A stretch of 64,000 nucleotides of DNA, from positions 62,001 to 126,000 of the forward strand of contig CAMVDP010000003.1 of NCBI GenBank assembly GCA_947166275.1, given 5' to 3'. This DNA is from an uncultured Clostridia bacterium (GTDB lineage: Bacteria > Bacillota > Clostridia > Oscillospirales > Ruminococcaceae). The notes beneath the pieces were generated by a model, which did no database searches, was not told the DNA's origin, and saw only the letters and a program-made list of their open reading frames with translations. This document shows positions 5,083 through 6,806 of the stretch, piece by piece (the first letter of the stretch is position 1; each line of letters opens with the position of its first letter). The position numbers and the translations under genes are program-made.

Positions 5083-5256
5083 ATGGCTTACAAGATCAAT
5101 GCAGAAGAGTGCATTTCCTGCGGCGCTTGCGCAGATGGCTGCCCTGTTGAGGCTATCTCTTCCGGAGATTCCGCTTACGTGATCGACGCTTCCAAGTGCA
5201 TCGACTGTGGTGCTTGCGCAGATGCTTGCCCCGTTGGCGCTCCCAAGTCTGAATAA
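5083..5256 (+). CDS. 2[4Fe-4S] clostridial-type ferredoxin
   Basis: A 57-residue electron carrier. It has two copies of the CxxCxxCxxxCP motif: CISCGACADGCPVEA and CIDCGACADACPVGA, each of which binds a 4Fe-4S cluster, with the two halves clearly derived by duplication. CAGGAGGAAAA precedes the ATG. Such ferredoxins carry low-potential electrons between pyruvate:ferredoxin oxidoreductase, hydrogenases and Rnf-type complexes in fermenting anaerobes. It stands alone with its own promoter and terminator, which fits a highly expressed household gene. Confidence 0.95.
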   Translation: MAYKINAEECISCGACADGCPVEAISSGDSAYVIDASKCIDCGACADACPVGAPKSE

Positions 5257-5361: not shown

Positions 5362-5402
5362 GCAGAAACTCCCCGGGGGTATTAAGTCCGGCGGATTTCT
5401 GC
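5362..5402. repeat. Inverted repeat overlapping the candidate RNA promoter
   Basis: GCAGAAA (5362-5368) and TTTCTGC (5396-5402) flank a GC-rich core containing CCCCGGGG. It covers the -35 region of the -10 box at 5406, so it could be an operator or an upstream transcript end; no U-tract follows. Confidence 0.4.
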
Positions 5403-5411
5403 CGATATAAT
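5383..5411 (+). promoter_or_regulatory. Possible promoter of the GGGA-rich RNA
   Basis: A perfect TATAAT at 5406-5411 with further TATAAA-like bases after it. The hexamer 17 bases upstream (TTAAGT) is a poor -35 match. Transcription would start near 5418, just before the first GGA motif. Confidence 0.45.
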
Positions 5412-5417
5412 ATAAAA

Positions 5418-5560
5418 TCAAGGAACGCAGGGATAGCGGGACAGCTTACAGGGACGTAAGAAGCAGGGAAGCGGACAAACATGATGGCAGGGATGTATCG
5501 GCAGGGAAGCATCAGAAGTTTTCCGAAAAACGCATCAGGGACGATGCGAAGGGAAATTTC
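5418..5560 (+). ncRNA. Candidate CsrA/RsmA-sequestering-like small RNA (AGGGA repeats)
   Basis: This gene-free stretch holds eight GGGA motifs in about 125 bases, seven of them AGGGA. Two sit exactly in hexaloops AGGGAC: stem CTTAC/GTAAG at 5445-5460 and stem CGCATC/GATGCG at 5531-5548. A third stem, TGATG/CATCA (5482-5486 with 5510-5514), encloses two more. Repeated ARGGA motifs in loops are the mark of CsrB/RsmZ-type RNAs that titrate CsrA. A -10 box lies directly upstream. Where it ends is unclear; the hairpin at 5595-5624 is the next candidate. On the other strand the loops would read GUCCCU, which resembles C-rich Gram-positive sRNA loops, so strand is not certain. Confidence 0.45.
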
Positions 5561-5594
5561 ATTCACCCCGAAAAAAAAATTTTACATATAGACG

Positions 5595-5624
5595 GGACCC
5601 CCGCCGCAATAGCGGCGAGGGTCC
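5595..5624 (-). terminator. Terminator-like hairpin between cellobiose epimerase and the RNA candidate
   Basis: Two 6-bp GC-rich helices (GGACCC/GGGTCC and CGCCGC/GCGGCG) separated by a single mismatch, with an AATA loop. On the minus strand a run of nine T lies about 15 bases beyond it, so it probably ends the epimerase transcript; it could also end a plus-strand RNA. Confidence 0.55.
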
Positions 5625-5642
5625 TTACAATTCTGCCGGTTT

Positions 5643-6806
5643 TCAGCTGCGCTTCATCAGCTCGATGCACATACGTCCGTTGTGATAAGGGCATTTCCAC
5701 GGGTCTACCGTAGCCTTCGCGCTGTCGGGTGCACCGTTTTCGAGTATCTGCGAGTACCACTCGCCGCCCTCACGGCGGTCAATAAGCTCTGCCTTGATGT
5801 TTTCCCACAGAGCTTCCGCGATCTCGAGATATCGCTTATCACCGTATTTCTGATACGCGTTGGTGAAGCCTACAACACCTTCTGCCTGTACCCACCATAC
5901 GTGTATCTTGCTTATCTTGTCCTTGTCACGCTCGTTGTTCAGTGCGCCGTTCTCAAACGCGATATCCGCGATATTGCGTACCACAGCTTCGTTCATAACG
6001 CGAACTTTCGCGGTGAGCGCTTCGTCGCCTATCACCTCGCAGGCGCGGTCAATGAGCCATGTAGCTTCTATATCGTGACCGTAGGAGTGTATGTCCCCGA
6101 TGACGTTGAGCTCGCGGTCAAAGAACACGAGCAGGCGGCTTTCGGGCTTGTAGTATATCTTGTCGAGGAAGATACTGATTTGGAATTTAAGGCGGTTCAG
6201 CACGCGCTCATCACTGCTTACGCGGTACAGCTCGGTATACGCTTCGAGCAGATGCAGCGTGGTGTTCATGGTCTTGTCTGCCATGAGCCCGTTCTCTGAA
6301 AGCGCGTCATTGGGGATGAGCTTCCAGTCCGCGGACATGGCTTCAAGATATGCCACATCATCGGTGCAGTTTTTCTCCACTGTTTCGAACAGCTCAAGTG
6401 CGAGCTTGAGAGCGTTATCGTCCTTTGACGCGTCATAATAGCTCGCGAGAGCGTATATGAAGAAAGCCTGGCAGTACGTATGCTTCATGCTGTCGTTTAC
6501 GGTACCGTCAGCGTTCATCAGCCAGTAGACTCCGCCGTTTACCGGGTCGACGCAGTACTTACGCATGAATTCAAAGCAGTGCCGCGCGTTTTCAAGACAC
6601 TCGGAGTCTCCCAACACAAGGTAGCAGTTCGAGTAGAACCACAATATCCTCGAATGAAGGATAACTCCCTTTTCGGCGTTCATGTCAAGGTCCAGGTCAA
6701 AACCCATGAAGCCGTAGAAGCCGCCGCGCTCGTTGTCCTTCAGCTTGTTCCAGAACGGTATGATATGCTCTGTGAGCTCTTTTCTTGCTTCGCTTACTAT
6801 TCCCAT
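5643..6806 (-). CDS. Cellobiose 2-epimerase (AGE family)
   Basis: An (alpha/alpha)6-barrel enzyme of the N-acylglucosamine 2-epimerase superfamily, 387 residues, close to the usual length. Its N-terminus (LTEHIIPFWNKLKDNERGGFYG) and whole layout match the cellobiose 2-epimerase of Ruminococcus albus, which turns cellobiose into glucosyl-mannose during cellulose or mannan use. Conserved His residues expected in the active site lie in SYGHDIEATWL and near the C-terminus in KCPYHNGRMC, and the HVWWVQAEGVVG segment is typical. There is no signal peptide, so it acts in the cytoplasm. AAAGGA precedes the start. Alternative: another AGE-family sugar epimerase; I favour cellobiose. Confidence 0.85.
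   Translation of the reverse strand: MGIVSEARKELTEHIIPFWNKLKDNERGGFYGFMGFDLDLDMNAEKGVILHSRILWFYSNCYLVLGDSECLENARHCFEFMRKYCVDPVNGGVYWLMNADGTVNDSMKHTYCQAFFIYALASYYDASKDDNALKLALELFETVEKNCTDDVAYLEAMSADWKLIPNDALSENGLMADKTMNTTLHLLEAYTELYRVSSDERVLNRLKFQISIFLDKIYYKPESRLLVFFDRELNVIGDIHSYGHDIEATWLIDRACEVIGDEALTAKVRVMNEAVVRNIADIAFENGALNNERDKDKISKIHVWWVQAEGVVGFTNAYQKYGDKRYLEIAEALWENIKAELIDRREGGEWYSQILENGAPDSAKATVDPWKCPYHNGRMCIELMKRS

Follow-up and report, generated by a model that had tools for sequence, protein, structure and literature searches.

A short region downstream of a ferredoxin gene in an uncultured Clostridia bacterium very probably specifies a sigma-28-dependent noncoding sponge RNA that would titrate the regulator CsrA beside the protein FliW. 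The region lies in a stretch of 64,000 nucleotides that was analysed at its full length and is called the window here. An earlier note on this DNA had put forward a CsrB/RsmZ-like small RNA at this place, and the proposal is supported in that csrA is present in the genome and GGA loops are retained in four other species. At the sequence level the unit is marked in five species by a promoter, a terminator hairpin and the lack of a retained open reading frame (ORF).

The motif AGGGA occurs seven times on the plus strand, at positions 5429, 5450, 5465, 5489, 5503, 5537 and 5550, within a span of 126 bases (5429-5554). None of 10,000 dinucleotide shuffles of the region 5416-5560 reached seven (shuffle mean 0.9), so that the cluster which had been noted in about 125 bases stands. 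In the same shuffles the six copies of CAGGGA (mean 0.23) and the five matches to the CsrA consensus CANGGANG (mean 0.19) were likewise never equalled, and the eight copies of ANGGA, against a mean of 2.3, were equalled in 4 of 10,000. Plain GGA, with 10 copies against a mean of 6.7 (380 of 10,000 as high), is only mildly enriched whereas the longer motifs are strongly enriched, which points to an extended motif and not to richness in G and A. Across the whole window AGGGA is less frequent than expected, 51 copies against a shuffle mean of 87. The ANGGA motifs of the window RNA are spaced 9 to 34 nt apart. The string that had been likened to the published consensus is present as UACAGGGACGU, although its coordinates are 5447-5457 and not 5448-5457. 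The parts of the locus, with the grounds on which each was placed, are as follows.

5083..5256, plus strand: 2[4Fe-4S] ferredoxin gene, flanking and outside the RNA.
5382..5408, plus strand: sigma-28 (SigD/FliA) type promoter, TTAAGTCC-N11-GCCGATAT, from conservation in homologous loci.
5416..5632, plus strand: candidate noncoding RNA of about 217 nt, from the distance to the -10 element, the hairpin terminator and its being alignable in five species.
5426..5438, plus strand: possible hairpin CGC-AGGGAUA-GCG with a seven-base loop, absent from the predicted minimum-energy fold.
5445..5460, plus strand: CsrA-type hexaloop hairpin CUUAC-AGGGAC-GUAAG, from the register count and the predicted fold.
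5463..5472, plus strand: hexaloop on a 2-bp stem, GC-AGGGAA-GC, from the register count; absent from the predicted fold.
5487..5496, plus strand: hexaloop on a 2-bp stem, GC-AGGGAU-GU, from the register count; absent from the predicted fold.
5501..5510, plus strand: hexaloop on a 2-bp stem, GC-AGGGAA-GC, from the register count; the predicted fold pairs this stretch otherwise.
5515..5560, plus strand: compound 3' stem, 5515-5524 with 5551-5560, around the strongest hexaloop hairpin, from the predicted fold.
5531..5548, plus strand: 3' CsrA-type hexaloop hairpin CGCAUC-AGGGAC-GAUGCG, from five species with stem changes on both sides.
5580..5590, plus strand: conserved A/T-rich stretch TTTTACATATA just ahead of the terminator, resembling the end of a mini-ORF in sister loci.
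5594..5625, plus strand: terminator hairpin, from the alignment; its 3' position in the RNA is retained on inversion in one homologue (G011).
5643..6806, minus strand: N-acylglucosamine 2-epimerase-family gene, flanking and convergent, outside the RNA.

Both ends of the RNA, 5416 and 5632, are predicted, with a margin of a few bases for the 5' end. On the plus strand the U-tract of the terminator is weak (TTACAATT). With the terminator excluded (5416-5590) the RNA folds better than its shuffles (z = -2.76; 2 of 200 as good). The earlier description of two identical AGGGAC hexaloops on unrelated stems of 5 and 6 bp is correct; they lie at 5445-5460 and 5531-5548 and are the only two of the seven AGGGA (5450 and 5537) that form clean hexaloops in the predicted fold, the others having 2-bp stems or none. 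A third stem that was said to enclose two further AGGGA can be drawn in the form given, with GAUG 5483-5486 against CAUC 5510-5513, but the minimum-energy fold differs and pairs GAUGU 5492-5496 with GCAUC 5509-5513, which encloses one AGGGA (5503) and uses part of another (5489). The possible hairpin at 5426..5438 has a counterpart, CGC-AGGGAAC-GCG, in another carrier of the RNA (G076).

The structure was examined by a register test, in which the base pairs directly flanking a six-base loop were counted for every ANGGAN in the five known RNAs, terminators excluded. There are 34 such sites, 5 to 9 per RNA, and 18 of them have at least 3 bp, and 25 at least 2 bp, in the exact hexaloop register. 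When the flanking letters were permuted, a mean of 1.4 sites had at least 3 bp and none of 5000 permutations reached 18; for the RNAs taken singly, 0 to 6 of 5000 permutations were as high. Other loop sizes and offsets gave 0 to 4 sites with at least 3 bp, save size 8 with offset -1 (11 sites), a setting that counts the same stems again without the first pair of each. Elsewhere in the window only 20 of 474 ANGGAN sites have at least 3 bp (7 of 155 on the plus strand and 13 of 319 on the minus strand). The 3-bp stems around the hexaloops comprise 13 different sequences, so that the same loop on different stems, first seen in the window, holds across five species; the closing pair is C-G at 22 of the 34 sites. 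Across the five species 29 of the 30 cells of the 3' hairpin (5531..5548) are paired, and two of its six pairs show changes on both sides. With five rows the column-wise covariation is modest; three measures were equalled in 12 of 500 shuffles, and two others in 56 and 59. Escherichia coli CsrB was negative in the strict ANGGAN test; in free register it shows five-base AGGAN loops, with 9 of its 22 GGA having at least 3 bp. The free-register count thus detects a known sponge, and the type of loop differs.

Five species carry the GGA-rich RNA: that of the window (G000), G011, G002, G076 and G077. A BLAST search of 60 relatives with the intergenic region returned three loci at the same place, two with the RNA (G011 and G002) and one with a sister form described below (G034), and loci anchored on the ferredoxin gene added G076 and G077. 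The ferredoxin gene had matches in 58 of the 71 genomes of the genus; of the 30 loci drawn from these, 29 were inspected, all but L059. Promoter, GGA hairpins and terminator hairpin are common to all five, and the loops are retained in the four other species on changing stems, as had been expected of a functional RNA. In G011 the RNA unit (L005, 1424-1604) lies between the same two genes, epimerase and ferredoxin, but in the opposite orientation to that in the window, and its promoter and terminator hairpin remain at their own ends; that promoter, loops and terminator have moved together argues that they form one unit. It is hardly credible, then, that there is no gene here and that the GGA richness of a convergent intergenic region is accidental or belongs to terminators of the opposite strand. 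The locus does lie between convergent genes, and the epimerase transcript could terminate on the minus strand at a hairpin with T runs behind it, but the inversion, the register test and the recurrence in five species all speak against such a reading.

The promoter is better read as a sigma-28 type by its conservation in homologues than from the window copy alone. Of 30 flagellin loci, 22 yielded a consensus for flagellin promoters of the genus, TAAAGTTT-N11/12-GCCGATAT; among the remaining eight, three were without a promoter by the pattern and five gave no start codon. The window promoter has three mismatches to it and is not significant by itself, as 37 of 100 shuffles contain one as good, but four homologous loci and three sister loci have closer matches at the corresponding position, and the four homologues have TAAAGT and CGATAT at the spacing of the consensus. 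The "perfect" -10 box of the earlier note, TATAAT, is there, but it overlaps the sigma-28-type GCCGATAT (5401-5408), and a sigma-70 reading is unsupported; a simple sigma-70 scan gives no site at this place. The promoter core is exact in 5 of the 71 genus genomes, the same five that carry the RNA, and with up to three mismatches it is found in 16 of 71, against five with a control pattern. The gene for sigma-28 lies on the window's own contig (206.8 bits against a cut-off of 189.6), and the family TIGR02479 scored above its cut-off in all 16 genomes queried, among them all five RNA carriers. The window genome has a further sigma-28-type promoter, of full consensus (TAAAGTTTTGAGAAACTCTGCCGATAT; L063, G000:C1:92565-92591), with no ORF evident by eye for several hundred bases behind it, and this may possibly precede another flagellar RNA.

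The genome to which the window belongs is a draft of 1.88 Mb in 49 contigs, probably a MAG, and is 81% complete. The two genes for which a search had been advised are present in it, side by side and on a different contig from the window: fliW (96.6 bits against a cut-off of 25) and, directly behind it, csrA (73.6 bits against a cut-off of 27). By Pfam the pair sits between flgK and fliD; an intervening ORF, behind flgK and ahead of fliW, is a putative flgL by eye. Adjacent csrA and fliW were found in all five genomes that carry the RNA. Within the genus csrA was found in 55 of 71 genomes and the exact promoter core in five, so most genomes are without the RNA as far as the pattern can tell.

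At the orthologous place, downstream of the ferredoxin gene, three sister species (G034, L039; G071, L041; G060, L045) have a sigma-28-type promoter, the ribosome site AGGAGGTGA and a 13-codon ORF with a GTG start (MSFRTAAKNNTYI and similar), which could possibly encode a flagellar mini-peptide. Sequence suggests that this sister form is a short CsrA-target-like mRNA. It shares its place, promoter type, tail and terminator with the GGA-rich RNA, and differs from it in having a ribosome site and the 13-codon ORF, with a single hexaloop hairpin ahead of the ORF in two of the species and none in the third. The hairpin, GGC-AAGGAU-GCC, is found in G071 and G060, where csrA is present, and is absent in G034, where a search for csrA gave no match although that genome is 96% complete and has flagellin and sigma-28; this is a single case, and an assembly gap is possible. 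A FliA tree of 15 of the 16 rows (G086 was left out, its contig being too short) unites both forms in a single group of nine (100/99) that also includes G073, which shows neither form at the locus. The tails of the two forms are alike at their 3' ends (...ISFTPKKKFYI* in the window genome, VGISFTPKKFLYI* in G076), and this resemblance argues that one form was derived from the other, in either direction. In G071, tandem copies of a unit of roughly 70-80 bases (CGGGGACGCCCGGCAGCGAATACGCGG...) follow the terminator of the mini-ORF, on the reverse strand of L041 from about 1950.

The sister form raises the alternative that the window RNA is itself a short CsrA-repressed mRNA for a small flagellar peptide and not a sponge. 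Although the mini-ORF in three relatives and the likeness of the tails favour this, we consider it improbable, since none of the five GGA-rich RNAs has such an ORF with a retained ribosome site, reading frames are not retained, and the RNAs hold their several ANGGAN sites each; G011 and G002 are without such an ORF, and G077 has one ORF with a TTG start and a chance ribosome-like site.

Flagellin leaders provide a comparison for the noncoding sponge reading. In 26 leaders of the genus, drawn from 30 loci (L276-L305, with L293, L295, L297 and L299 left out), 14 of 44 ANGGAN sites have at least 3 bp in the hexaloop register, though adjacent loop sizes, too, give 8 to 10 such sites. Such a hairpin lies upstream in eight and at the ribosome site in six, as in CCGAA-AAGGAT-TTCGG and TTC-AAGGAG-GAA. 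A class-wide pattern scan matched 21 of 391 genomes, against seven with a reversed-pattern control, and four of the 21 matches (L309, L312, L314 and L315) stand before ORFs that are flagellin-like by their N-termini, with leaders such as GTGGC-AAGGAT-GCCAC followed by a TTC-AAGGAG-GAA ribosome site; L307 and L316 have hairpin and ribosome site ahead of unnamed ORFs, and the window RNA is itself among the 21. These leaders show a two-site arrangement as in Bacillus subtilis hag, which suggests that such loops are read by CsrA in Clostridia. The leader of the one flagellin gene found in the 81% complete window genome contains no ANGGAN, and the target presumed to be the main one thus did not come to light in this genome.

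Wider scans place the RNA in one clade, within the genomes scanned here. Triples of CAGGGA matched 11 of the 71 genus genomes, against six with a reversed control, and the window RNA was the sole match recognised as noncoding, several others looking like coding repeats. In G069, tandem repeats of about 30 bases starting CAGGGAA occur on three contigs (C66, C124 and C147; L066, L083 and L086). A pattern applied across the order (162 of 394 genomes) was too loose and was judged noise among the matches listed, of which one was read in context.

We propose that sigma-28 RNA polymerase would make a noncoding RNA of about 217 nt together with the late flagellar genes. Of its seven AGGGA, two would lie in strong C-ANGGAN-G hexaloops and three more, in register with them, on short stems. 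With these loops the RNA could hold several CsrA dimers. As sigma-28 would become active after hook completion, the RNA would rise along with flagellin mRNA, titrate CsrA away from flagellin and other leaders and so free them, an effect that would add to that of FliW, which inactivates CsrA by binding. That the RNA is transcribed, that it binds and sequesters CsrA, and when and in which direction it acts, we infer from sequence. Alternatively, the GGA loops might serve as seed regions of an RNA that acts by base pairing or binds a protein other than CsrA. Sigma-28-dependent flagellar sRNAs have been described in Campylobacter (PMC4626219, PMC11187230), but the loop and its closing C-G pair are retained here while the stem sequences vary, and the loop is the CANGGANG hexaloop of CsrA/RsmE (PMC4894983), which recurs at flagellin ribosome sites; we therefore regard such a role as very improbable.

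If the RNA soaks up CsrA, it would work beside FliW, which had been taken for the sole CsrA antagonist in such bacteria. On balance we favour the wider reading that it would be the first CsrA sponge in Firmicutes and the first candidate for joint control of CsrA by an sRNA and FliW: timed by sigma-28, confined to one clade, evolved from or into a CsrA-controlled mini-mRNA through loss or gain of the ORF and multiplication of hexaloops, and serving a feed-forward release of flagellin at hook completion. A review speaks of mimic sRNAs and FliW-like proteins as "two mutually exclusive mechanisms" (PMC7366521), FliW and BarA-UvrY, which switches on the sRNAs, are reported to be strongly anti-correlated (PMC4682653), and control of CsrA by sRNA and by FliW is treated as a matter of alternatives in the parts consulted of PMC7652899, PMC4894983, PMC4682653, PMC13407953 and PMC7366521. 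The locus offers five genomes for a direct test of this mutual exclusivity, links a candidate CsrA sponge with the sigma factor of the flagellar genes and holds, at one orthologous place, a sponge-like RNA in some species and a CsrA-target-like mRNA in others. A literature search at the level of titles and abstract openings met no CsrA-sponge RNA in Firmicutes among the papers listed, and by a term search Firmicutes, Clostridium, Bacillus and FliW are all absent from PMC5568370.

Among known systems in Firmicutes, the hag leader of B. subtilis has two CsrA sites, one of them over the ribosome site, and belongs to a FliW-CsrA-Hag switch (PMC7652899). FliW, CsrA and a flagellin leader are common to that switch and the present case, and no sRNA antagonist is described there in the excerpts of that source; our locus has no flagellin downstream and no retained ribosome site, and hence no leader of the hag type. 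The B. subtilis SR1 is a Firmicute sRNA that involves CsrA (PMC7652899). The role of CsrA in that case is to promote the pairing of the sRNA with an mRNA, and SR1 is not known as a CsrA sponge. The flaA leader of Campylobacter jejuni is sigma-28-dependent, has two GGA hexaloop sites and titrates CsrA together with FliW (PMC4894983). The titrator in that case is a flagellin mRNA leader with two sites, whereas here it would be a separate candidate noncoding RNA with more sites. The loops of our RNA are six-base ANGGAN loops closed by C-G, the same type as the CANGGANG hexaloop described for CsrA/RsmE and for the flaA leader (PMC4894983).

The families of CsrB/CsrC in E. coli and RsmX/Y/Z in Pseudomonas are noncoding RNAs with several GGA hairpin loops each and a terminator of their own. 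The window RNA shares the loops, has a terminator hairpin and would likewise be noncoding, and like them it is predicted to bind several CsrA dimers. Rfam gave no match at gathering in the window, CsrB, CsrC, RsmY and RsmZ included; at E-values up to 10 over 5380-5660 it returned only four unrelated families, all below their cut-offs. The upstream palindrome of the UvrY/GacA type is TGTAAG-N6-CTTACA. By this consensus there is no such box near the RNA, the nearest of 17 chance-level sites being more than 2 kb away. CsrB has five-base AGGAN loops (RsmX/Y/Z stand outside this comparison) and the window RNA six-base loops. By Rfam and by its promoter the candidate RNA is outside CsrB/RsmZ. In function it should resemble them, as a candidate CsrA-sequestering sRNA. 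CsrB, CsrC, RsmY and RsmZ have a UvrY/GacA box in hosts that, as reviewed, are without FliW, whereas the window RNA has a putative sigma-28-type promoter in a host with FliW.
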